Source: Kribbella pratensis
GTDB lineage: Bacteria > Actinomycetota > Actinomycetes > Propionibacteriales > Kribbellaceae
Reading direction: 5' to 3'
Length of the DNA stretch: 64,000 bases
NCBI RefSeq assembly: GCF_004366075.1
Contig: NZ_SODU01000003.1
Span: forward strand, 682,001 to 746,000
A program made the translations under genes and the position numbers. Under the pieces are notes generated by a model. The model ran no database searches and was not told where the DNA came from. It saw only the letters and a list, made by a program, of their open reading frames with translations. How positions within the stretch are numbered: position 1 is the first letter of the stretch; each line of letters begins with the position of its first letter. This document shows, piece after piece, positions 34,109 through 47,743 of this stretch.

Positions 34109-35329
34109 TCACTCCGGCACGCGGTGGATGCGGAGGGCGAGGAGGAGGGCGGTGGTGGTGATCGCCGCGAAGGTGATCGCCGTACCGGGGTAGCCGCCGA
34201 GGCCTAGGCCGAGGCCGCCGATCGCGGCGCCGAGGAACGTGCCGAGGCTCATGCCGGCCGCGTTGACGCTGAGCGCGGATCCGCGGAGCTCACCGCTGCG
34301 GCGGACCAGCAGAGTGGTGACACAGGCCGCGACCGTTGCGTGGCTGGCGCCCATCAGTGCGGTGAGGAGCAGCGTGAGCGGGAGCGTCGGAGAGAAGTAG
34401 AACGCGGAGACTGCGAGCAGGGCGACGGTGATGCCGCCGGCGAGGAGTCGTTCGGGGGAGATCCACGGGCGATCGGTGGCGAGGTACCGGCCGGAGAGGA
34501 GGTTGCCGAGGAAGAACGATGCGCCGCTGAGCGACCAGACCAGCGCGAACCAACCCGGCGCAAGGTCGAACTTCTCGTCGTAGAACGCCGCGAGGTAAGC
34601 GAGGTAGCCCATGAAGGCCGCGGTTCGCAGCATCGCGATGGCAAGCAGCGGGAGCGCGCCAGGGATCCTGGCAAGCTCGCGGTACGTCGCCAGGTAGCTC
34701 ATCCGCTCCCGGTTGGTGATCGGCGCCTTGCGCCCGCGCCCGCGCCAGAAGAAGGCGCCCGCCAGGACGAGTGAGATCGCTGCCGCCGCCAGCAGGTTGC
34801 CCCGCCAGCCCCAGACCAGTCCCGGCCCGGCGAGCACCGGAGCCGCGAGCATCGCCATCGCCGACGTCGTCGCGGACACCAGCGTCGCCGCACGGCCCGC
34901 GGCGGCCGGCGACCTGAACCGATCCGCGGCCGCGGCGCCGATCGACGGCGCCAGGATCGAGGTCGACGCCCCGATCAGCAGGCAGAACGCGGCCAGCGCA
35001 AACACGTTGCCCACGGCCCCCAATGCGGCCGAGACACCCAGCAGCGCGAGCCCGCCCGCGGCGACCAGCTCACGCGGCACGCGATCCATCAGCGGCGCCA
35101 GCACAACGCCGACGGCTAGCGCTGCCAGCCCACCGAGCCCGCGCAGTCCACCGATCTCCGCAACGCTCCCGCCGGCGGCCTCGGAGATCGGCACCAGATA
35201 CATCCCGAACACCGTGAACGGGATCAGACTCACCGTCGACGCCAGCAGGAAAGGCCACAGCCTGCGGGCCATCCGAAGATCGCCCGGGACTGCTGCCGCG
35301 GGTGCGGTGAGGTTCTGCTGGGTGCTCAT
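34109..35329 (-). CDS. MFS efflux transporter, last gene of the metallophore-like operon
   Basis: 406 aa with twelve predicted membrane helices and the MFS layout (PLMDRVPRELVAAGG between helices 2 and 3, the central basic loop RGRGRKAPITNRERMS between 6 and 7). Overlaps the DUF364 stop as ATGA, so the two are coupled. In opine-metallophore loci (staphylopine cnt, for example) an MFS protein of this size exports the chelator made by the neighbouring enzymes; that role is my inference here. No ribosome-site anomaly. Confidence 0.88.
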   Translation of the reverse strand: MSTQQNLTAPAAAVPGDLRMARRLWPFLLASTVSLIPFTVFGMYLVPISEAAGGSVAEIGGLRGLGGLAALAVGVVLAPLMDRVPRELVAAGGLALLGVSAALGAVGNVFALAAFCLLIGASTSILAPSIGAAAADRFRSPAAAGRAATLVSATTSAMAMLAAPVLAGPGLVWGWRGNLLAAAAISLVLAGAFFWRGRGRKAPITNRERMSYLATYRELARIPGALPLLAIAMLRTAAFMGYLAYLAAFYDEKFDLAPGWFALVWSLSGASFFLGNLLSGRYLATDRPWISPERLLAGGITVALLAVSAFYFSPTLPLTLLLTALMGASHATVAACVTTLLVRRSGELRGSALSVNAAGMSLGTFLGAAIGGLGLGLGGYPGTAITFAAITTTALLLALRIHRVPE

Positions 35330-36135
35330 GTATCCGTCCTGTAGCGATAGAGGCTGCTCGGGCGGGAGCTGAACTGGGAAAAGGGAAAGGGTTCCGCGGA
35401 CAGCGCGGTAACGCCGGCGCCGAGGAAAGCACGGGCGACCGCACTACCGGTCTGAGCGTAGACGGCGAGCGGCTTCGATTGCTCACGGCAACGAGCAAGG
35501 AGTACGTCGAAGCTGCCGTTGGACAGTGTCATACCGGTGGCGACGACTGCGTCGGCCGCGTCGATCACCTCGATCATGTCGCGGGAAACGGGCAGGCCGG
35601 AGGCGGTCTCGCGGAGGTTGAAGTCGCACGGAAGGCAGACGCCCCCGCGTTCCGTGATCGCGTCGACGAGCGGGTTGACGACTCCGATCAAGGCAACTTT
35701 GGTGCCTTCGGCAACGTCCAGGAGTCCGGCGACAGCGGCGTCACGGGCGCGGGCACGAACATCCGGCGTACCAGCGGGAAGGACGACTTCCTCGGCGTAC
35801 GGCACTGTGTGGTGCGGCTCGACCGCGGCCAGGTAGGCGTCCAGCGCGGCGATCCGGACGGGGAGCGGGTCGTTGGAGGAGAGTACGTCGGCGAGCGTGC
35901 GGCCGGAGGTGTCGGCGCAGTACGCCGGGTCGAGCTCACCCGACTCGAAGGAGCAGGCACCGAACACCTCTTCTACTCGCAACAGCACGTAGTAGTTCCG
36001 ATAGGTGACGTCGGCACCAGGCAGGCGCGTCGTGTGGTGCAGCCAGAACGCACTGGTGATGTCGAGGTCCGCCGGTGCCGGACCACGCGCTCCGGCGAGA
36101 ACCTCTGCGGTCAGATCAGCCACGGAACGGGTCAT
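35326..36135 (-). CDS. DUF364 (Rossmann-like, 'putative heavy-metal chelation') protein
   Basis: 269 aa. The C-terminal half is PF04016-like: KVALIGVVNPLVDAITERGG, then DAADAVVATGMTLSNGSFDVLL, and GAGVTALSAEPF. The N-terminal half (about 35-130) resembles DUF4213. Cys residues at CLPCD and CSFESGELDPAYC are noted but no metal site is proven. The ATG at 36135 with GGGAGG 4 bases ahead is buried in a long stem. It lies between a PLP enzyme and an MFS exporter under a Zur-like box, so a role in making or handling a metal-binding metabolite is plausible; the reaction is unknown. Confidence 0.82.
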   Translation of the reverse strand: MTRSVADLTAEVLAGARGPAPADLDITSAFWLHHTTRLPGADVTYRNYYVLLRVEEVFGACSFESGELDPAYCADTSGRTLADVLSSNDPLPVRIAALDAYLAAVEPHHTVPYAEEVVLPAGTPDVRARARDAAVAGLLDVAEGTKVALIGVVNPLVDAITERGGVCLPCDFNLRETASGLPVSRDMIEVIDAADAVVATGMTLSNGSFDVLLARCREQSKPLAVYAQTGSAVARAFLGAGVTALSAEPFPFSQFSSRPSSLYRYRTDT

Positions 36136-36238
36136 GGGGCCTCCCGGCCTGGACTGAGGAGCGGAGGGAGCGAAGCGACTGGAGCGACGAGGGAAGGCCG
36201 GGAGTCACAGCCCCATGACCCGCGCGCCGGAGGCGCGC
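36130..36238 (-). promoter_or_regulatory. Structured leader in front of the DUF364 gene
   Basis: In the minus-strand RNA a small hairpin (GCGCGCC-tcc-GGCGCGC, 36222-36238) comes first, then a stem in two pieces: 36210-36220 with 36130-36140 (11 bp) and 36195-36204 with 36141-36150 (10 bp), a 5-base bulge between. The 3' strand of this stem contains both the ribosome site GGGAGG and the ATG 36135. An open frame of 45 codons from ATG 36253 runs through the whole leader and stops at 36117, overlapping the gene start. It could act as attenuator, translational switch or a mobile palindrome. Confidence 0.6.
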
Positions 36239-36291
36239 ATTCAATAGAGTCATGGGAGATCAGCCAGCCTTTCGGGTTGTCGTGCCTCACA

Positions 36292-37350
36292 TTAATGCGA
36301 CGGAGTCGCAGATGGAAACTCCTCGCGCTGAACCTGTGCGGAGTCCCGCCGGTCCCACGACATCGCCGACCAGGGCACCGCGAGTTCGTCCAGCGAGTCG
36401 ATCTCCCGCGGCCGCATCGACGCCATCGGCCGCGCCTCGGCGTGCCGGGCGAAGGCGGACTCGACGTACCGCGTGCCGGTGTCCGCGGCCAGGAAAACGT
36501 GTTTCCGGCCGCGGTCGCAGTTGTGCTCCCACAACGCCGACAGGTACGCCGCCCCGGCGGACAGCCCCGCGAAAACGCCGGACGTGCGGAGCAGATCCAC
36601 CGCCGCCGACATCGCATAGTCGAACGAGACCCAGTGCAACCGGTCGTACAGCTCGTGCCGCACGTTCCGGAACTCGATCGAGCTCCCGATCCCCGCGATG
36701 ATCATCTCCGGGTCCTGCGTGTGCCCGGCCCCGAACGTGATGCTCCCGAACGGCTGCACGCCGACCAGGTTCACGTCCCGGCCGCGCTCCCGCAGGTACG
36801 CCGCGATCGCGCCGGTCGAGGCGCCCGTACCGACACCGCCGACCAGGCACAGCGGACCGGTCGGCACCAGCTCCGCCACGAGATCCGCGATCGCGCCGTA
36901 CCCGAGGTAGTGGATGTCGTCGTGGTACTGCTGCATCCAGTGGTACGTCGGGTTGTCGCGGAGGATCTCGCCGATCCGGCGGACGCGCAGGTTCTGGTCG
37001 AGCTGCAGGTTGTTCGACGACGGCACCTGCTCGATGGTCGCGCCGAGGATCTCCAGCTGGATCTTGAGCGTCCGGTCGACCGTCGTGGAGCCGACGATGT
37101 GGCATTTCATCCCGTACCGGTGGCAGGCGAGCGCGAGCGCGTGCGCGTAGATCCCGCTCGAGCTGTCGATCAGCGTGTCACCGGGCCGGACCTGCCCGGT
37201 CTCCAGCAGCCGGCGGACGGCGCCGAGCGCGGAGTACACCTTCATGGTCTCGAACCGCAGGCAGATCAAGTCGTCCCCGGTGCCGGAACTGACGCGGATC
37301 GGGTCCGGGTCCTTGATGGCCTCCGCCAGGTGGTCGTGCAGTCGCGTCAT
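36292..37350 (-). CDS. Divergent cysteine-synthase-like PLP enzyme
   Basis: 352 aa fold-type II PLP enzyme. FETMKVYSALGAVRR holds K37, the likely PLP Schiff-base Lys; SSSGIYAHALAL (63-74) replaces the usual substrate loop TSGNTG; GGVGTGAS (171-178) is the phosphate-cup; TSGVFAGLSAGAAY near 290 matches the SAGA block. Overall it is nearer SbnA-like beta-replacement enzymes than CysK, but the CysK signature NPGSSVKDR is absent. It overlaps the ABC ATPase stop (ATGA) and precedes the DUF364 gene. Probable role: beta-substitution or beta-elimination building an amino-acid chelator; inference only. Confidence 0.82.
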   Translation of the reverse strand: MTRLHDHLAEAIKDPDPIRVSSGTGDDLICLRFETMKVYSALGAVRRLLETGQVRPGDTLIDSSSGIYAHALALACHRYGMKCHIVGSTTVDRTLKIQLEILGATIEQVPSSNNLQLDQNLRVRRIGEILRDNPTYHWMQQYHDDIHYLGYGAIADLVAELVPTGPLCLVGGVGTGASTGAIAAYLRERGRDVNLVGVQPFGSITFGAGHTQDPEMIIAGIGSSIEFRNVRHELYDRLHWVSFDYAMSAAVDLLRTSGVFAGLSAGAAYLSALWEHNCDRGRKHVFLAADTGTRYVESAFARHAEARPMASMRPREIDSLDELAVPWSAMSWDRRDSAQVQREEFPSATPSH

Positions 37351-38894
37351 CGGCGCGGTTCGCTCCTCGAGTCGGTTGTCAGCACGGGCGGAGTCTCTGC
37401 GGGCGGGGATTGGGGGTTGCCGATCCGGGTGGCTGCGACCAGCCGCCGGGTCAGCTCGTGGTGTGGCTCGGTCGTGATCGTCGCGGGCGGGCCTTGCTCC
37501 ACCACCCGGCCGGCGTCGAGGACCAGGACCCGGTCCGCGACGGCCGCGACCAGGCGCAGGTCGTGGCCGATCCAGATCAGCGCCGTACCGCGGTCCTTGA
37601 GCTCGGTCAGGAGGTCGAGTACGAGCGCCGTACCGTGGTCGTCGAGGGCGGTGGTGATCTCGTCGCAGATCAGTACGTCGGGGTTCGCCAGCACTGCTCG
37701 CGCGAGAGCCGCTCGTTGCAGCTCGCCGCCGGACAGCCGGCTCGGCGGGCGGGCGGCGGTGATCGCGGCGACCCCGAGACGGGCCAGCGTGGCGACGGCT
37801 TCGGCGTGCGCCTTGTCCGGCGCGAGTCCGCGCAGGCGTTGCGCCGTACGGGCGACCTGCTGGTCGACAGGACGGCGTTCGTCGAAGGAGCCACGGACCT
37901 CCTGCCAGACGTACTGGACGCGGCGGTGCTGGTCGCGGGTCCGCTTCCGGAGGACCGGGAGCGGTTCGTCGTCGAGCAGGATGGTGCCGGTGTAGCGCTC
38001 GTGCAGGCCGGCCAGGCAGCGGGCCAAGGTGGTCTTGCCGCTGCCGGAGCGGCCGACGACCCCGAGACAGGCGCCGGCGCGGACGGCGAGGTCGGCCTCG
38101 TGCAGGACGACGTCGCGCCCGCGGGGGCGCAGCGAGGCAGACAGGTTCATTGCCGTTAGCAACGGTTGTCCGGCAGCAGAGGTTCCCGTGACCTTCAGGT
38201 CCGGTGCAGGTGGGAGTACATCGGTGGCGATCACCTGACCGGCATCGAGGACGACAACACGGGATGCGAGGGCGCGGACCAGGTCGAGATCGTGACTGAG
38301 CAGCAAGATCCCGAGACCGGTGGCGGCGAGGTCCCTGAGTTCGTGGACGAGTTGCAGCCGGGTGATCGAGTCGAGACCGGTGCTCGGCTCGTCGAGCACG
38401 AGTACCTTCGGCCGGCAGGTGAGCGTTTGCGCGAGCGCCACTCGTTGCCGCTGGCCACCGGAGAACTGATACGGAAAACGTTTGAGGGTTGAGCGGTCTC
38501 CGGGCACCTGCGCCGCGCGGACGGCCTCGCGGGCGTCGCCGTCGTGCAGCTTCGCCAGCTCCTGCAGCGTCGTCCCGATCCGCCGGGCGGGGTTCAGCGC
38601 ACTGCCGGGATGTTGCGGCATGTACGCGACGACGCGGCCGCGTATCGATTGCGCGGCGGCAGTCACTCCGTTGCTGGCGACAACCAGCTGACCGTCTACC
38701 TCCACGTAACCGCCCAGTTGTACGCCGTCGGCATGTTCTCCTAGCAGCGCCAGCGCTGAGGTGGTTTTCCCCGACCCGGAGGCGCCGACGAGAGCGGTCA
38801 CCTCCCCCGCGACGACCTCGAACGAAACCCCGTCCACCAGCACCGCTTCCCCGGCGGTCGCGGACAACCCGGTCACGCGCACCACCGGCGTCAT
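37347..38894 (-). CDS. Fused double ATP-binding protein of a peptide/nickel-type ABC importer
   Basis: 515 aa carrying both ATPases of an Opp/Nik importer in one chain. Domain 1 (about 1-235): VGASGSGKTT, FSGGQRQRVALAQTL, LVLDEPSTGLD, LLSHD. Domain 2 (about 255-480): VGRSGSGKTT, LSGGELQRAALARAV, LICDEITTALDD, WIGHD. Q-loops MPQHPGSALNP and WQEVRGSFDERR are of OppD and OppF type. Domain 2 keeps the catalytic Glu. ATG 38894 overlaps the permease stop (ATGA), and its own stop overlaps the PLP gene. Confidence 0.93.
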   Translation of the reverse strand: MTPVVRVTGLSATAGEAVLVDGVSFEVVAGEVTALVGASGSGKTTSALALLGEHADGVQLGGYVEVDGQLVVASNGVTAAAQSIRGRVVAYMPQHPGSALNPARRIGTTLQELAKLHDGDAREAVRAAQVPGDRSTLKRFPYQFSGGQRQRVALAQTLTCRPKVLVLDEPSTGLDSITRLQLVHELRDLAATGLGILLLSHDLDLVRALASRVVVLDAGQVIATDVLPPAPDLKVTGTSAAGQPLLTAMNLSASLRPRGRDVVLHEADLAVRAGACLGVVGRSGSGKTTLARCLAGLHERYTGTILLDDEPLPVLRKRTRDQHRRVQYVWQEVRGSFDERRPVDQQVARTAQRLRGLAPDKAHAEAVATLARLGVAAITAARPPSRLSGGELQRAALARAVLANPDVLICDEITTALDDHGTALVLDLLTELKDRGTALIWIGHDLRLVAAVADRVLVLDAGRVVEQGPPATITTEPHHELTRRLVAATRIGNPQSPPAETPPVLTTDSRSEPRR

Positions 38895-39730
38895 CGCGCG
38901 CTCTCCACGAGACGGCGCGACCTGTGCACGAGTCGGTCGGCGAGGAGGTTGAAGCCCAACGTGAACGAGACGAGAAGGAGCGCCGGGGCGAGGACCGACC
39001 AGGGTTGGAGGAGCAGTCCTTCGCGGTTGCGGGACACGCTGACCGCCCAGTCCGGCGCGGTCGGGCTCAGACCGAGCCCCAGGAAGTTGACCGAGGCGAC
39101 GAGGAACACCGCGAGCGTGATCCGCGTGCCGAGATCCGCCGCGACCGGACCGAGGACCGAGCGTCCGACGTACCCGAGCTGGATCGTGAACCACGACTCC
39201 CGTTGCATCCGGAGCGCCTCGACCACCGGCCCGCTGGCCGCGTCCAGGGCAGCCGCTCGGACGAGTCGCGCGACGGTCGGGACGTTCACCATCGCTACGG
39301 CCACGGTGATTGCGATCGCGGACGCGCGCCAGCCGACCGCGACCACGCTGATCACGAGGAGGGACGGGAGCGGCAGCAGTACGTCGAGAGGCCGCATCAT
39401 GCCTTCGTCCAGCCACCGATGCCGGGTCGACGCGGCCGTGAGTCCGATCAGTCCACCGATCAGATACGCCAGCACCACCGCACCGATCGCCATCCCCAAC
39501 GCCGACCGCCCGCCGACGAGCAACAACCCCAGAACATCCCGGCCCAACCCATCCGTCCCCAACACGCCCTCGGGCGAGTAGGGCAGGCCGGGCCGAGCGT
39601 CGTACGGCAGCAGCGGCCCCAGCACTGCAACAACCAACGGCACCGCAACCAGTCCCACCGACACGCCGACTGACACGCCGCGCGGCATCCGCAGGCGTCG
39701 ACCGCTGGCGACACGCTCGCGCGGACTCAT
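38891..39730 (-). CDS. ABC transporter permease (DppC/NikC type)
   Basis: 279 aa with a basic N-terminus, five to six membrane helices and the LGTDGLGRDVLGLLLVGGRS segment that is the hallmark of DppC/OppC/NikC permeases; the EAA-like loop is EALRMQRESWFTIQLGYVGR. ATG 39730 overlaps the preceding permease (ATGA). Inner-membrane half-channel of the operon's importer. Confidence 0.93.
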   Translation of the reverse strand: MSPRERVASGRRLRMPRGVSVGVSVGLVAVPLVVAVLGPLLPYDARPGLPYSPEGVLGTDGLGRDVLGLLLVGGRSALGMAIGAVVLAYLIGGLIGLTAASTRHRWLDEGMMRPLDVLLPLPSLLVISVVAVGWRASAIAITVAVAMVNVPTVARLVRAAALDAASGPVVEALRMQRESWFTIQLGYVGRSVLGPVAADLGTRITLAVFLVASVNFLGLGLSPTAPDWAVSVSRNREGLLLQPWSVLAPALLLVSFTLGFNLLADRLVHRSRRLVESAR

Positions 39731-40665
39731 CGGAGCAGCGCCGTTCGGGGGACCAACCGGTTGCAGACGAGGTCTGCGCCAAGGTTGATGAGGAGGGCCG
39801 CGACGGCCAGTACGAGCGTCAGGCCCTGGACGGTCGGTATGTCTCGGGTCTCCACGCCGTCCACGAGCGCTGTGGCGAAGCCGGGGATGGCGAAGATGGC
39901 TTCGACGACCAGGACACCACCCAGGAGGGTGTCGCCGGTGCGGGCGAGTTCTTGTACGCCGGGAACGGCCGCGTTCGGGAGGACGTGGCGGAGCAGGAGT
40001 TGACGGCGTGGGATGCCGAGCCGTCGGGCCTGCGTCACGTACTCGGCGTTCAGAGCGGCAACTGTCCCGGCGCGGACCTGACGCGACAGCAGGCAGACCG
40101 TCCGGCCGAAGAGTACGGCGATGGGAAGGATCAACAGGGCCGGCGAGGACAGGAGGTTGCCGCCGATCCACGTCGCCGGCAACCAGCCGAGTTTCAGCGA
40201 GAACACGGCGACCAGGACGACCGCGATCACGAAGTCCGGGATCGCCGACAACGCCAACGTGATCGACGTGATCGCACGGTCGACGCGTCCGTTCTCACGG
40301 GTCCCCATCACGATGCCCAGGGCGACGGCCAGCGGTACGACGATCGCTAGCGTTGCTAGCGTGAGGACGAGTGTCGCGCCGATCGAGTGCCGCACGATGT
40401 CGACCACAGGTCCCCCGCTGATCAACGACGTACCCAGATCGCCGGTCAGCACATTGCCCAGCCAGTGCACGAACCGCTCGACAGGAGGCTGGTCGAGACC
40501 GAGCTCGGCGCGAAGCGCAGCGACCTGCGACGGCGTCAGCGTCTCGGTGAACCGCAGGTCCGCCGCATCTCCCGGCAGCAACGACGTCAGGACGAACACG
40601 AGCACCGAGAGCACAGCCAACTGAACGATCGCGAGCCCCGCCCGTTGGGCGGCGTACGACCGCAT
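39727..40665 (-). CDS. ABC transporter permease (DppB/NikB type)
   Basis: 312 aa. N-terminal AQRAGLAIVQLAVLSVLVFV helix, GDAADLRF and GDLGTSLISGGPV segments, six membrane helices and the coupling loop YVTQARRLGIPRRQLLLRHV identify the DppB/NikB group. Its ATG directly follows the binding-protein stop with no gap (TGAATG). With the DppC-type permease it forms the translocation pore. Confidence 0.93.
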   Translation of the reverse strand: MRSYAAQRAGLAIVQLAVLSVLVFVLTSLLPGDAADLRFTETLTPSQVAALRAELGLDQPPVERFVHWLGNVLTGDLGTSLISGGPVVDIVRHSIGATLVLTLATLAIVVPLAVALGIVMGTRENGRVDRAITSITLALSAIPDFVIAVVLVAVFSLKLGWLPATWIGGNLLSSPALLILPIAVLFGRTVCLLSRQVRAGTVAALNAEYVTQARRLGIPRRQLLLRHVLPNAAVPGVQELARTGDTLLGGVLVVEAIFAIPGFATALVDGVETRDIPTVQGLTLVLAVAALLINLGADLVCNRLVPRTALLR

Positions 40666-42207
40666 TCAGGCCAGCCACACCTTGTCGAACCGGCCCTGGT
40701 CCAAGGTGTTCGGCGGCACCGCCTGCACCCCCTGCACCTTCGACGACACCGCGATCAGGTAGTCCGGCAGCCCCCACGCGAGGATCCCGCCCTCGTCCCG
40801 CACGGTCCTCTGCAGTACGCCGTACTTCGCCGACCGCTCCTCCTCCGACGTCACCGCCCGCGCCGCCGCGAACGCGGTATCGAACGCCGGCCGCCGCCAA
40901 TGCGTCACGTTGAACGGCGAATGCGACAGCAACCGATCGGTGACGTACTGCGGAATCGGCATCGCTCCCGACCGATGGTTGCCAATGGCCCCCTTCGTGA
41001 GCAGGTCCTTCGCGTAGGTCTGCGGGCTCCCGGTCGTCACCTTCAACCGCACCCCCGCCTCCGCAACCTGCTCCGCGAACAGCGTCGCCGCCTCCACAAA
41101 TCCGGCCGACGCGTCCGCGGTGAAGATCTCCACCTCTTTGCCCGCCAGCCCCGCCTTCTTCAGCAAGCTCTTCGCCTGGTCGACATCACGCTCGCGGGCC
41201 GGCAGATCGGCCGGATAGTACTGATACCCCTTGCCGAACAGGTCGTTCCCCACCTCACCCCGCCCGGCGAGGACCACGTCCACCAGCCGCTGCCGGTCCG
41301 CGACCAGCTTGAACGCGAGCCGTACGTCGGGATTGTCGAACGGCGGCCGGTCGACCTTCATCACGAACGCCTGCATCGTGCTGGCCTTCGCCGCCACGAT
41401 CCGCACCGTCTTGCCGGCCTCCGCGGTCCGCGCGAACGTCGCGGTCATGTCGTTGGCGTACTCCGCCTGACCACCCTGTACGGCGTTCGCCCGCGCCTCG
41501 GAGTCCGCCGAGAGAATGTGCAGCTCCTCGATCCGCGCGGGCTCGTCCCAGTAGCCGTCGTACCTCGAAGCGACCATCGAGCGGCCGGCCTCGAACGACA
41601 CGTACCGGAAGGCTCCCGTGCCGACGGGCTTGGTGGGATCCTTGAACCCGTTCCGCACGATCTGCGTGCCGATTCCGGCCAGCAGCGCGGGGAACTCCGC
41701 GTTCGGCTGGTTCAGCACCAGCTCGACCGTCGACGGGCCGATCGCCTTGCTGCGCTTGAGATCCAGCGTCGCGAGCGACGACTGCGCGACCCGCTCCGGT
41801 ACGGCGGGATCCACGATCCGGGCGATGCTGTACAGGACGTCCTCGGCGACGAGTTTCGCGCCGTCGTGGAAGGTCGCGTCGCGCAGACTGAACCGCCAGG
41901 TGGTCGCGGTCCCGTCGTGTTCCCACTTCGACGCGAGCCGCGGTACCGGCTTCAGATCCGGGCCGAGTTCGACCAGCTTCTCGTAGATCGCCTTGTGCCG
42001 CGCGATGTCCACGAACAGGCTCTGCACGTGCGGGTCGAGCACCTCCTTCGCCCCGCCGCCGGCGTACACGGCCCGCAACCGTCCGCCCTGCCTGGGTTGC
42101 GCGGCCGCACCCCCGTCCGCCCCACATCCGGTGATCGCCGCCAGCCCGGCAACCCCGGCCATCCCCAGGAACCCACGCCTACCCAAAGCCTCGGACACGC
42201 GCCACAT
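40666..42207 (-). CDS. Substrate-binding lipoprotein, family 5 (peptide/nickel/metallophore type)
   Basis: 513 aa from ATG 42207 (AAGG five bases ahead; GTG 42213 is the alternative). N-terminus GRRGFLGMAGVAGLAAITG-C has a twin-arginine pair and a lipobox, so it is a probable Tat lipoprotein. Mature part shows SBP family 5 blocks: WRFSLRDATFHDGAKLVAED, VGTGAFRYVSFEAGRSMVAS, NPDVRLAFKLVADRQRLVDV. Family 5 proteins bind peptides, Ni chelates or metallophore-metal complexes. First gene of the operon, 13 bp from the Zur-like box. Confidence 0.92.
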   Translation of the reverse strand: MWRVSEALGRRGFLGMAGVAGLAAITGCGADGGAAAQPRQGGRLRAVYAGGGAKEVLDPHVQSLFVDIARHKAIYEKLVELGPDLKPVPRLASKWEHDGTATTWRFSLRDATFHDGAKLVAEDVLYSIARIVDPAVPERVAQSSLATLDLKRSKAIGPSTVELVLNQPNAEFPALLAGIGTQIVRNGFKDPTKPVGTGAFRYVSFEAGRSMVASRYDGYWDEPARIEELHILSADSEARANAVQGGQAEYANDMTATFARTAEAGKTVRIVAAKASTMQAFVMKVDRPPFDNPDVRLAFKLVADRQRLVDVVLAGRGEVGNDLFGKGYQYYPADLPARERDVDQAKSLLKKAGLAGKEVEIFTADASAGFVEAATLFAEQVAEAGVRLKVTTGSPQTYAKDLLTKGAIGNHRSGAMPIPQYVTDRLLSHSPFNVTHWRRPAFDTAFAAARAVTSEEERSAKYGVLQRTVRDEGGILAWGLPDYLIAVSSKVQGVQAVPPNTLDQGRFDKVWLA

Positions 42208-42219
42208 CCTCACCTTTAG

Positions 42220-42234
42220 TGAAAACGATTGTCA
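42220..42234. promoter_or_regulatory. Zur-like palindrome upstream of the metallophore-like operon
   Basis: TGAAAACGATTGTCA is a 15-bp imperfect palindrome (TGAnAA...TTnTCA) close to the TGAAAATnATTTTCA-type operator described for actinobacterial Zur repressors. It ends 13 bp before the start codon of the binding-protein gene, where a bound repressor would block initiation. It stands out as AT-rich in GC-rich surroundings. Identity as Zur rather than Fur or another metalloregulator is inference. Confidence 0.6.
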
Positions 42235-42417
42235 AATCCAGCGCGCATCCGAACCCGACGCGATCATTCTTTCGGGCACACTCCACCCAGCGCCCGCCGT
42301 AACGGCGTGTCACCACCGCCTACCCCCGAGTACCTGGAACGACCCCCAGCCATGAGCACTCGAATCGCAGATCGGATGGTTAGACGCTGACCGGAACGCC
42401 TCGGCGGACCGGTGTGC

Positions 42418-43359
42418 TCATCGCAGGGTGAGTGGGGTTGTGGAGGCGACGCGGGTCAGCTTCTGTGGGTTGCGGACGTAGTAGAGGCCGGTGATGTGGT
42501 TGTTCTCGACGCGGATCGCCAAGATGCCGTCGAACTCGCCGTTCACGTGGACGAGCAATGCCGGATTGCCGTTGACCACGGTGGCCTCGCAGGTGATCGC
42601 GGCTTCCGCCTTGGCGGTGCCGCCGAGGTAGTAGCGGGCCACCTTCTCGGCACCGATGACCGGCTGTGGCGCGGCCGTCTTCACGCCGCCACCGTCGCTC
42701 ACCAGGACGACCTCGGGGGCGAGCACATCGAGTAGGCCCTGCAGATCCCTGGTTTCCAGTGCGCGCTGGAACGTCTCCAGAGCCGCCCGAGCCTGGCCGG
42801 CAGAAATGGTCTCGCGCGGGCGACGGGCGTCGACATGCCGGCGGGCGCGGTGCGCGATCTGACGGACGGTCGCGGGACTCTTGCCGACGGCGGCCGCCAC
42901 CTCGTCGTAGCTGACACCGAAAACCTCGCGCAGCACGAACACGACACGTTCGGTCGGCGAGAGGCTCTCCAGGACGAGCATGAGCGCCATCGACACGCTC
43001 TCGGCGAGCTCGGCGTCCTCCGCCACGTCCGGCGTGGTGAGCATCGGCTCGGGAAGCCAAGCGCCGACGTACGTCTCCTTGCGACGCTTCATGGTGCGCA
43101 GCCGGTTGAGCGACTGCCGGGAGGTGATCCTGACCAGGTAAGCACGCCGGTCGGACACCTCGCTCACATCGACCTTGATCCAGCGCAGCCAGGTTTCCTG
43201 GAGCACGTCCTCGGCGTCGGCTGCCGAGCCGAGGATCTCGTAGGCGACGGTGAACAGCAGGTTGCGGTGGGCAACGAAGGCGTCGGTGGCGGAGTCCATC
43301 TGGCAGCCGTCGAGAGGCGGTCCGCCGGAACCCGACGCTACCTCGCTGTGCTCGTTCAT
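42418..43359 (-). CDS. ECF sigma factor, ECF41 group with SnoaL-like extension
   Basis: 313 aa from ATG 43359 (GGGAG upstream). Sigma region 2 about 20-90 (ADAEDVLQETWLRWIKVDVS), region 4 about 145-195 (SLSPTERVVFVLREVFGVSY), then a C-terminal SnoaL-like domain of about 115 residues that begins LQGLLDVLAPEVVLVSDGGG-VK, the DGGGK-like motif of ECF41. In this group the extension replaces the anti-sigma. Typical partner genes are oxidoreductases or decarboxylases, here the divergent SDR gene. Confidence 0.92.
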   Translation of the reverse strand: MNEHSEVASGSGGPPLDGCQMDSATDAFVAHRNLLFTVAYEILGSAADAEDVLQETWLRWIKVDVSEVSDRRAYLVRITSRQSLNRLRTMKRRKETYVGAWLPEPMLTTPDVAEDAELAESVSMALMLVLESLSPTERVVFVLREVFGVSYDEVAAAVGKSPATVRQIAHRARRHVDARRPRETISAGQARAALETFQRALETRDLQGLLDVLAPEVVLVSDGGGVKTAAPQPVIGAEKVARYYLGGTAKAEAAITCEATVVNGNPALLVHVNGEFDGILAIRVENNHITGLYYVRNPQKLTRVASTTPLTLR

Positions 43360-43419
43360 ACCTGCTCCCGGTTGTTGCTTCTCAGCCTGCTTTGCCACAA
43401 GACACCGGCCCTCACCTCC

Positions 43420-43468
43420 GCGTGACACGCCTGCCGGGTGGGCTGCGTCACACCTCTGCGGTGTCACA
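43420..43468. promoter_or_regulatory. TGTCAC-type elements between the ECF41 and SDR genes
   Basis: TGTCACA occurs on the plus strand at 43462-43468, facing the SDR gene 65 bp away, and CGTGTCACG on the minus strand at about 43421-43429, facing the sigma gene and followed after 16 bases by TGTC. ECF41 promoters carry a TGTCACA -35 and a CGTC -10, so both divergent genes may be read by this sigma. The plus-strand -10 match is weak. Confidence 0.4.
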
Positions 43469-45004: not shown

Positions 45005-45991
45005 TCAAGGGGTGCGCGACAGGGCGACGGCGAGGCCGATCGTGCCGGCCATCACCGCGAGTTCTAGCACTGCTAGCTGCCGGAACGCCCCCGCGTCGCC
45101 GGTCGCCACCCGCGGGATCGTGCTCTGCCGATGCAGCCGGCCGATGAACACCAGGAGCGCGAACGCGAGCGTCTTCCCGAGCACCAGAACGCCATACCCG
45201 GATGTCGCCCATTGCGTGATCAGCCCCCAGCCGTCCTCGCGACCGCCCAGGTGGATCTCGGCGGTGAGGAGTCCGGTGATGCCCATCGTCACCGCGCAGA
45301 CGAAGGCGAGCGTGCTGAACAGCTCGACGGCCTCGCGAGAGCGGGTGTAGCGCAGTACCGCACCCAGGCCGCCGATCCACGCGGTCGCGGCGACGACGTG
45401 GACGACGAGCGATGCGGTGGCGAGGACGGACCACAGGCTGGTGCGATCGATCGCGCCGTGGCCGGTGAGGAGCGGTCCGATAAGCGCAGCGATCGTGAGT
45501 ACGGCGGCCAGTCGGGCCGTGCGCAACGTCTTGGCGCCGCTCAAGATCAGGGCGAGTACGGCGGTCAGCACGACGGCGACTGCCAGCGCGCGGACCTGAC
45601 TCAGTTGGCCGGCCGCGTTGGCGTGCTCAGCCAGATGGGACAGCGGGATCCCGAGAATCACGGTCGCCGTCGCAATCAGTCCGCCGATGCTCGCCACCGC
45701 CCAGATCCCGGCGGCCGCTGCGGCATCCTGACAGGCGCGGATCGCCTTCTTTCCGAGCTTTCCGTCCTTCGCGGGCAGGAACAGTACGACGGCCAGCACA
45801 GCTCCCCCGGTTGCTACCGCGGCCGCATCCGCGAGAATCCGCAGTACCGGGACCGCCCAGGAAACAGCCAGTCCGGCGCCGAGCAGGCCGTCCGGCGCCC
45901 GCTTCGGCGCACCACCGGCGGCGAACAACGCCGCCACCATCACAACGATGCCGGTAGCAACTATCCCGGCCGGGACGAAAGCACGTTTCAC
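45005..45991 (-). CDS. copD: CopD-family copper-resistance membrane protein
   Basis: 328 aa from GTG 45991, which overlaps the copC stop (GTGA). Eight or nine membrane segments; the C-terminal half holds the CopD domain with HVVAATAWIGGLGAVL, the conserved His that is thought to bind copper, and FSTLAFVCAVTMGITGLL. Works with CopC in moving copper through the membrane. The operon order ycnI-copC-copD is the standard actinobacterial one. Confidence 0.9.
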   Translation of the reverse strand: MKRAFVPAGIVATGIVVMVAALFAAGGAPKRAPDGLLGAGLAVSWAVPVLRILADAAAVATGGAVLAVVLFLPAKDGKLGKKAIRACQDAAAAAGIWAVASIGGLIATATVILGIPLSHLAEHANAAGQLSQVRALAVAVVLTAVLALILSGAKTLRTARLAAVLTIAALIGPLLTGHGAIDRTSLWSVLATASLVVHVVAATAWIGGLGAVLRYTRSREAVELFSTLAFVCAVTMGITGLLTAEIHLGGREDGWGLITQWATSGYGVLVLGKTLAFALLVFIGRLHRQSTIPRVATGDAGAFRQLAVLELAVMAGTIGLAVALSRTP

Positions 45992-46494
45992 GAGGCCGGC
46001 CGGCGGCGGACGATCACCACGGCCAACGCCACGACCACGAGCATCACCAAGCACATCGCGACGATCGTCACCGTGTTGGAGTTGCCCTCGGGCTGCGCCG
46101 GAGCATCGGCCGGTTGGGTGGCCGGATGGCCGGCGTGCGTAACGGTGAAGGCGCCGCTGACCGTGATCGGGTGACCGTCGGACGAGACCACGCGGGCCTC
46201 GACCGTGTACCTGCCGGCCTCGATCATCGCGCCGACCGGCTGGGTGACCGTGTTGTCGACCACCTGGACGGCACCATTCGCGACGTTCGTGCCGCTAGGC
46301 GATTTCACCTGCACCTGCGTCCCGTTGGACCCGACCGGCTCGTTGAAGGTCAGGATGACCTTCGTCGGCGGCGCGGCCATCGACGAACCGTCGGTCGGCG
46401 TCATCGACTCGAGCTTGGCGTGCGCCACTGCCACGCCGGCGGAAGCCACCAGCGTGTACAGCGACGCGACCAGTACTGCGATCAATCGGCGCAC
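45988..46494 (-). CDS. copC: CopC-family copper-binding protein with C-terminal anchor
   Basis: 168 aa. Signal peptide (1-24, ending VAVA) followed directly by HAKLESMTPTDGS, giving the mature N-terminal His that is the copper ligand of CopC; a second ligand region is RVVSSDGHPITVSGAF (Asp-Gly-His). The C-terminus carries a membrane helix (TVTIVAMCLVMLVVVALAVV) and a basic tail, so it is anchored with the domain outside. Starts 2 bp after the ycnI stop. Confidence 0.92.
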   Translation of the reverse strand: MRRLIAVLVASLYTLVASAGVAVAHAKLESMTPTDGSSMAAPPTKVILTFNEPVGSNGTQVQVKSPSGTNVANGAVQVVDNTVTQPVGAMIEAGRYTVEARVVSSDGHPITVSGAFTVTHAGHPATQPADAPAQPEGNSNTVTIVAMCLVMLVVVALAVVIVRRRPAS

Positions 46495-46496
46495 GG

Positions 46497-47180
46497 CTAC
46501 TGCTTCTCCACAACAGCTGCGGCACGACGAGGCCGCAGCCCGAAGGCCAGACCGAGCAGCCCGACCAGCAAACCACCGCCGCCGAGCCAGCGCGCCAACG
46601 TGTCAGAAGAATCCACAGAGGTCGTCGCCGCAACCGGCGTGATCGCCGCCGCCAGCTTCAACGTGGGCGCCGGATGTTCGGCCTCGGCACCGTCCTTGGC
46701 GACATCGGCCCACTTCACCACCTCGCCGTCGCTGTAGGTCTGATCCGCCGGAAAGCTCAAGGCGTCCACGCCCTCGGGCAGCTTCCCGACCGACAGCGAG
46801 AACTCGTCGAAGTCGTTCGGCGGGATCCCGGCCGCGGTCGCGGTCCAGGTGACCGTCGTGATCGCCTTGGTCAGCGTGACGTCACCGACCTTCACCGCGG
46901 CCGGCAGCTTCTCTTCTTTCTTCTCCACCTTCCATCCGTCCTTCACCTGCGCACCCACGTGCGCGAACGGATGGTCCTTGGGCAACGAGACGAGGAGCTT
47001 CGTGGTGCTGGTGTTGTCCGACTCGGTCGGCACGCGGAACACCAGCTTGGCGTACCCGCCGGGCTTGGCGTCCGGCGACGACACCGTGACGTGCGCCGAC
47101 GCCGAGCTCGCGGCGCCGATCACGACGAGCGCGGAGGCCGCGACGATCGCGCCGGCGCGCAGGGCGAATCTCTTGGGCAT
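46497..47180 (-). CDS. ycnI: YcnI-family (DUF1775) copper-associated exported protein
   Basis: 227 aa. Signal peptide ending SSASA then HVTVSSPDAKPGGYAKLVFR, so the mature protein begins with His, the Cu(II) ligand of YcnI. LVFRVPTESDNTSTTKLLVS and GIPPNDFDEFSLSVGKLPEG are conserved family blocks. A C-terminal membrane helix (WLGGGGLLVGLLGLAFGL) anchors it. ATG 47180. First of the ycnI-copC-copD trio. Confidence 0.92.
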   Translation of the reverse strand: MPKRFALRAGAIVAASALVVIGAASSASAHVTVSSPDAKPGGYAKLVFRVPTESDNTSTTKLLVSLPKDHPFAHVGAQVKDGWKVEKKEEKLPAAVKVGDVTLTKAITTVTWTATAAGIPPNDFDEFSLSVGKLPEGVDALSFPADQTYSDGEVVKWADVAKDGAEAEHPAPTLKLAAAITPVAATTSVDSSDTLARWLGGGGLLVGLLGLAFGLRPRRAAAVVEKQ

Positions 47181-47227
47181 GAGTGAACCTTTCAAGGCAT
47201 ACGAGTAGTCCGGCGCGATCGGCCGGC

Positions 47228-47743
47228 TCAGAAAGCAGTTACTCGTACGCCGGGAGGCCCGCGGCCGGAGACGCTCGTGCCGAGCCGGGATCCGCTCGGC
47301 GTCCACGCCGCGAAGAAAACGTGTTCCGCGTCGACCCGGCGTACCGGACGCGACATCGGCAGTTCGGGCAGCAGCCGCGCGAACACCCGCCGTACCCGAT
47401 GGACCCACCGGTGCGCCTGGCCGATCAGGAGGACGCCCGCCAGCAACGCACCCAGGTGGGTCCCCGTCATCATCAGGCTGCTCGCGATCGACATCCCGTG
47501 ATGCATGGTGACCGAGTCCAACGCGACATGCACGAACAACTGCGCCCCGGCCAAGACGAGCCCCGTCAGCAGCAGCTCCCCCGCCAGGTACTCGCCGAGC
47601 AGCCAGCAGACGGCGGCCAACGCCACCAGCGGAGGTACGACGCCCAGCGGCACGCCGCCGCCCCCGACGAGCGCATGACCGACCACCGCCACCGCGACGC
47701 TCAGCGCCGCGACCGCGGACGTCGTCCTGCTCTCGGTCGGCAT
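47228..47743 (-). CDS. Unrecognised four-helix membrane protein upstream of ycnI
   Basis: 171 aa with four predicted membrane helices (AALSVAVAVVGHALVGGGG, VPPLVALAAVCWLLGEYLAG, LTGLVLAGAQLFVHVALDSV, MMTGTHLGALLAGVLLIGQA) and a polar C-terminal tail of about 60 residues. His and Met residues gather in DSVTMHHGMSIASSLMMTGTH, which could bind copper. It lies 47 bp before ycnI on the same strand and is probably part of the copper operon. Not assigned to a named family. Confidence 0.75.
   Translation of the reverse strand: MPTESRTTSAVAALSVAVAVVGHALVGGGGVPLGVVPPLVALAAVCWLLGEYLAGELLLTGLVLAGAQLFVHVALDSVTMHHGMSIASSLMMTGTHLGALLAGVLLIGQAHRWVHRVRRVFARLLPELPMSRPVRRVDAEHVFFAAWTPSGSRLGTSVSGRGPPGVRVTAF

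Follow-up and report, generated by a model that had tools for sequence, protein, structure and literature searches.

The nearest described counterparts of the element studied here are the Zur boxes of actinobacterial znuA, COG0523 and zinc-free ribosomal protein genes, with which it shares the exact palindrome, the overlap with a presumed promoter and the occurrence of the same box at the zinc genes of its own genome. The actinobacterial znuA consensus, taaTGaNAANNNTTNtCANta, was derived from znuA genes and Zur ChIP and has TGANAANNNTTNTCA as its core (PMC5472717). The operon behind the element is absent from the actinobacterial targets in a review on Zur (PMC6103462). A Zur-controlled zinc chelator made outside the NRPS and NIS pathways has been described for Amycolatopsis japonicum, namely [S,S]-EDDS (PMC4993170). 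The present operon, compared with the EDDS system at the level of published descriptions, would be similar in that a small-molecule zinc chelator is under Zur control in an actinobacterium; no mention of DUF364 in the EDDS pathway was found in the literature searched, in which the EDDS genes go undescribed. With regard to gene content, staphylopine/Cnt and opine-like zincophore systems likewise combine a family-5 binding protein, two permeases, a double ATPase, biosynthetic enzymes and an MFS pump, and they are also subject to Zur-type control, as is suggested here. The Nik/Cnt importer family comprises carriers of nickel as well as of staphylopine-metal complexes. To our knowledge, no activity has been proven for DUF364, and we know of no product of a gene pair encoding a PLP-dependent enzyme and a DUF364 protein (PLP-DUF364 pair).

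In the window, i.e., the whole stretch of 64,000 nucleotides from Kribbella pratensis that was analyzed, the preliminary description had correctly located TGAAAACGATTGTCA at positions 42220-42234 and called it close to the actinobacterial Zur consensus; the match to the palindrome TGANAANNNTTNTCA (7-1-7 layout) is exact, and in operon direction (minus strand) the box reads TGACAATCGTTTTCA. Sites in whole genomes were counted by pattern searches, and the matrix scan covered the window. Exact TGANAANNNTTNTCA palindromes occur at five places of the own genome (8,387,673 bp), the one at 42220-42234 included, and sites with at most one mismatch at 23, compared to 7 when the pattern was reversed. 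For 38 genomes of the same genus, 172 exact palindromes (a table sum) were counted vs. 2 for the reversed control. A matrix built from four other Zur targets of the own genome (TGAAAATGATTGTCA, TGACAACCGTTATCA, TGAAAACCGTTTTCA, and TGGTTATCGTTTTCA), with the 42220-42234 box left out, gave this box 22.1 bits, unlike a random AT-rich site and the top score in the window (runner-up 11.5 bits), and the leave-one-out scores of the four targets themselves, ranging from 15.0 to 20.3 bits, were all lower. Under an independent-base model, the chance expectation at 22.1 bits is about 7e-5 per 64 kb and about 0.009 per genome. The element at 42220-42234 is almost certainly a Zur box in function, and the operator appears to be an ordinary member of the actinobacterial kind, with the pathway under its control being what looks new. 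Of the five exact palindromes, one (TGACAACTGTTCTCA) lies near a MarR-family gene (L013:1501-1515; genome C1:3034750) and has no evident link to zinc.

The same box, and not a different motif, is found at the known Zur targets of the genome. The znuA box TGAAAATGATTGTCA, one base off the 42220-42234 box, belongs to an operon of znuA, an ABC-3 permease gene and zur; a second operon for ZnuA, ATPase and permease is preceded by the exact box TGACAACCGTTATCA, and a CobW/COG0523 gene by the exact box TGAAAACCGTTTTCA. A weaker, degenerate box, TGGTTATCGTTTTCA, has a zinc-free L33 gene on one side and, on the other, a second CobW/COG0523 gene with a zinc-free L31 gene after it (L239:2134-3688; genome C2:102133-103687). 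The Fur-family protein of the znuA operon scored 197 bits to the Zur of S. coelicolor and 178 bits to that of M. tuberculosis, and on this similarity it is unmistakably the predicted Zur of this genome. The former classification of the element as a Zur-like operator is thus supported by the genome matrix, by the boxes at zinc genes and by the Zur ortholog. In total, the genome contains four Fur-family genes. One adjoins a katG-like catalase-peroxidase gene, both lying mostly past the right end of the window (L027:5375-8010; genome C3:745374-748010).

The minus-strand reading of the site is TTGACAATCGTTTTCA, in which TGACAATCGTTTTCA is preceded by a T, resulting in a -35-like TTGACA (42230-42235, minus strand). 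The box covers five of the six bases of this hexamer and stops 21 bases short of the likely start codon GTG 42198, which bears out the earlier statement that it overlaps the expected initiation region. The overlap with TTGACA is kept in all 36 same-genus loci and in 21/21 non-Kribbella boxes read in operon orientation. GAGGAT (42206-42211, minus strand), 18 nt from TTGACA, is the probable -10 element; it matches TATAAT weakly and was not reported by the consensus scan. In both Kribbella clades TTGACA stays together with AGGAT about 17 nt further on; relative to the reference start, the box is positioned near -20 in one clade and near -65 in the other, in which the start lies approximately 45 nt further downstream. 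A promoter whose -35 element is overlaid by an operator would be expected to behave in this way, and we infer the promoter from it. The longest open reading frame of the binding-protein gene begins at 42213, and GTG 42198 is the probable start codon because, in a comparison of upstream regions, no other candidate lines up with the start of the other Kribbella clade; it gives the N-terminus MSEALGRRGFLG, a Tat-type lipoprotein signal. The starts GTG 42213 (annotated/upstream) and ATG 42207 fail to align in this way and are less likely. As the predicted transcript start would be located on or next to GTG 42198 in the clade of the window, the transcript would likely be leaderless there; the -10 element is weak.

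The operon spans positions 42198 to 34109 on the minus strand and consists of seven overlapping or adjoining genes. The first (40666-42198) encodes a NikA/CntA-like solute-binding lipoprotein of family 5 with a Tat-type signal (PF00496, E 1.8e-68), whose scores for Opp5A/NikA (134 bits) and CntA (61 bits) are both under the cut-off. It is followed by ABC permease 1 (39727-40665; PF00528, E 1.8e-28; Opp2B/Opp1B best), ABC permease 2 (38891-39730; PF00528, E 1.9e-16) and a double ABC ATPase (37347-38894; PF00005 twice; NikD/NikE/CntD/CntF-like), the latter two each overlapping the preceding gene by 4 bases. The importer thus has the ABC family and gene order of NikABCDE nickel/Opp importers; it differs from these in the Zur box at the promoter and in staying below every curated equivalog cut-off (NCBIfam; NikA 90/393, NikB 182/447, NikC 95/358 bits), and with such sub-threshold scores, family membership does not reveal what it transports. 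The next gene (36292-37350) encodes a cysteine-synthase/SbnA-like PLP-dependent enzyme (PF00291, E 2.2e-33). Its best curated family is SbnA, which acts with SbnB in diaminopropionate synthesis for staphyloferrin B, yet it reaches only 126.4 bits vs. the TIGR03945 cut-off of 349.95 (NCBIfam). All 76 PLP-enzyme sequences compared share K37, presumed to be the PLP lysine, as well as the FE-MK and SSSGI motifs. The Pfam and NCBIfam scans detected no SbnB-type partner in the operon, which instead contains a DUF364 protein (35326-36135), a putative metal-chelation enzyme. With 42.2 bits this protein passes the Pfam cut-off of PF04016 (23 bits), and it has an enolase-N/Rossmann fold match. A PDB sequence search yielded no close relative; its structural model (pLDDT 91) matched the DUF364 structures 3L5O and 3NPG best among PDB folds (TM about 0.6). 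For DUF364, a role in metal chelation was suspected earlier, and condensation or hydrolysis in the making of flavins, pterins or siderophores was suggested (PMC2954201). An MFS transporter, presumed to be an exporter, closes the operon (34109-35329; PF07690, E 1.6e-26; 4-base overlap with the preceding gene). An Opp/Nik-type ABC importer and an MFS exporter are therefore found in one operon, as in Cnt systems. In contrast to those, no nicotianamine-synthase-like enzyme or opine dehydrogenase was found among the operon proteins by the same scans, a PLP enzyme of beta-replacement type and DUF364 taking their place, and the importer is far under the Cnt cut-offs. A plain NikABCDE, Cnt or SbnAB assignment was rejected, since the operon proteins score below the curated cut-offs. 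On the other side of the box, an ECF-type sigma factor gene is located at 42418-43467 of the window, and beyond it, at 45005-47408, the translations showed by eye CopC, CopD, and YcnI-like copper-handling open reading frames.

The genes for the PLP enzyme and DUF364 were present in 38/38 same-genus genomes and linked in all 37 that carry both on one contig. Comparison of the window with 37 related same-genus loci revealed the importer gene in 36 loci of this set, each of them with a perfect upstream box (36/36). The arms of the box, TTGACAA and TTTTCA, are invariant, and the three center bases vary (TCG, CGA, CTA, CCG). Two genomes (G015 and G026; loci L120 and L123) have kept the PLP enzyme and DUF364 and lost most of the importer; no box is present in the stretch read, and the MFS gene is truncated in one and absent from the stretch read in the other. 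When named genomes were searched for the DUF364 protein, 80 loci were recovered, of which 60, at 63-72% identity, lie outside Kribbella. The non-Kribbella loci belong mostly to Streptomyces, but also to Amycolatopsis, Prauserella, Thermocrispum, Actinophytocola, Actinorugispora, and Actinopolymorpha. Together these 60 loci (1.16 Mb) contain 59 Zur-like sites at no more than one mismatch vs. 0 for the reversed pattern. The same importer was found in 10 of them, nine with a perfect box upstream, and outside the genus almost every named locus retains the PLP-DUF364 linkage.

Three settings of the PLP-DUF364 pair were observed: with the Nik/Cnt-type importer and the MFS gene, as in the window; with the MFS gene and no Nik/Cnt-type importer; and with the two genes swapped in order, downstream of a FecB-type binding protein gene and transporter genes of siderophore-like type. 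The reversed layout is seen in L150, L154, L169, L179, L188, L205, and similar loci; where flanking sequence was read, in L154, the pair comes after a Zur-like box and the genes for a FecB-type binding protein and siderophore-like transporters, and DUF364 has an unknown 259-aa protein in front of it. In a more distant relative (L125) the pair stands alone, with no importer nearby and a perfect box 135 bp upstream. The pair thus occurs with a Nik/Cnt-type, a FecB-type or no importer, a pattern expected of a biosynthetic unit that can move.

In many Streptomyces loci and in 18/37 Kribbella loci, about 0.75-1 kb separates the PLP gene from the DUF364 gene; in the Kribbella gene examined, this stretch encodes a PhyH-type dioxygenase. 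This gene is intact in those 18 Kribbella loci and lost in 19, the window being among the latter. Here, the gap between the two genes (36135-36291) holds a scar of about 30 bases of the dioxygenase 3′ end (36251-36280, minus strand; 29 of 31 bases match the corresponding end of the intact L088 gene). The remaining approximately 115 bases (36136-36250) are unrelated and partly self-complementary, GTCGCTTCGCTCCCTCCGCTC; a 13-base core of them recurs in two other stretches of the own genome, and they are possibly a small interspersed repeat. Mapped on the tree, presence and absence of the dioxygenase require at least seven changes, at least four of them under well supported branches, and the scars differ in their breakpoints. 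Given this repeated loss, the product probably exists in two or more versions among Kribbella species. Loss of the gene within one genus suggests that relatives have differing chelators and bears on the question of private vs. shared metal carriers.

Based on these sequence comparisons, it is very likely that the operon is repressed by zinc-bound Zur. With plentiful zinc, a zinc-loaded Zur dimer would occupy the box, mask TTGACA together with the beginning of the spacer, and deny RNA polymerase access. Upon zinc scarcity, Zur would leave, and one transcript would be made for the Nik/Cnt-type importer, the PLP enzyme, DUF364 and the MFS pump. The PLP enzyme might then join an activated serine to the amine of an amino acid, DUF364 might complete the small chelator, the MFS pump would export it, and the binding protein together with the ABC importer would return the zinc chelate. 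It is solely the regulator that points to zinc as the metal carried, and the steps from Zur binding and promoter use to repression and the whole chemistry are put forward as a proposal. We are quite confident that a Zur operator combined with such a zincophore cycle is the best explanation of the locus as a whole, with the zincophore reading of the operon being probable in itself.

The view that the box is an AT-rich palindrome that arose by chance can draw on the fact that random sequence of the make-up of the window gives 0.31 matches on average if three mismatches are allowed; the probability left for it is negligible, as it is ruled out by the exact match, the low per-genome expectation, the invariant arms with a drifting center in 36 genomes and the occurrence in other genera. 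Another metalloregulator, e.g., FurA or Nur of the Fur family, might be imagined to bind the box, given the four Fur-family genes, among them the one adjoining katG just outside the window and another whose product has PDB 3EYY, an S. coelicolor protein, as its closest solved structure. Nevertheless, the znuA-zur operon, the second znuA operon and the COG0523 gene carry the same box, and its sequence fits the consensus obtained from znuA genes and Zur ChIP (PMC5472717), which renders this very unlikely. Slightly less probable still is an activation of the operon by Zur. Zur is documented to activate via a box upstream of a promoter, as for the S. coelicolor exporter gene zitB, where 8 nt separate the box from the -35 hexamer downstream of it (PMC5472717), whereas in all genomes examined here the box sits directly on the -35-like hexamer, and importer genes are typically repressed by Zur.

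A different assignment of function would leave the Zur operator in place and have the importer take up zinc or nickel on foreign chelators or peptides, with the two enzymes processing the ligand or serving a zinc-sparing metabolism. The NikA/Opp-like character of the importer is compatible with this, as are the PLP enzyme, which is far under the SbnA cut-off, and DUF364, which has no known reaction beyond the suggested condensation or hydrolysis (PMC2954201). However, an exporter-type MFS pump closes the operon, the two enzymes stay together next to importers of other types and even, in L125, without any importer in the vicinity, still preceded by a Zur box, and a gene for a tailoring-type dioxygenase is situated between the two enzymes in many relatives. 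Import of foreign chelates is therefore considered unlikely, though to be taken seriously.

With the Zur-controlled zincophore as the preferred reading, the balance tips slightly towards an undescribed, widespread class of actinobacterial zincophores, made by an SbnA-like PLP enzyme and DUF364 as core with an optional PhyH dioxygenase, without NRPS, NIS synthetase or opine dehydrogenase, and recovered by interchangeable importers. If true, this would be the first biological role for DUF364. The operator names a metal, a regulator and a growth condition for the product, which makes the operon testable as a zinc-starvation system, and homologous gene pairs in Kribbella, Streptomyces, Amycolatopsis and relatives sit behind the same box.

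Loci of the second-best PLP enzymes in Amycolatopsis and relatives did not contain a Zur box. In Streptomyces sp. CC53 (L248:3781-8801), a different perfect box, TGACAATGGTTGTCA, precedes genes for an Orn/DAP-type decarboxylase and a distant PLP enzyme (28%), and the cluster continues with an aminotransferase and a methyltransferase; it could represent an EDDS-like cluster controlled by Zur.
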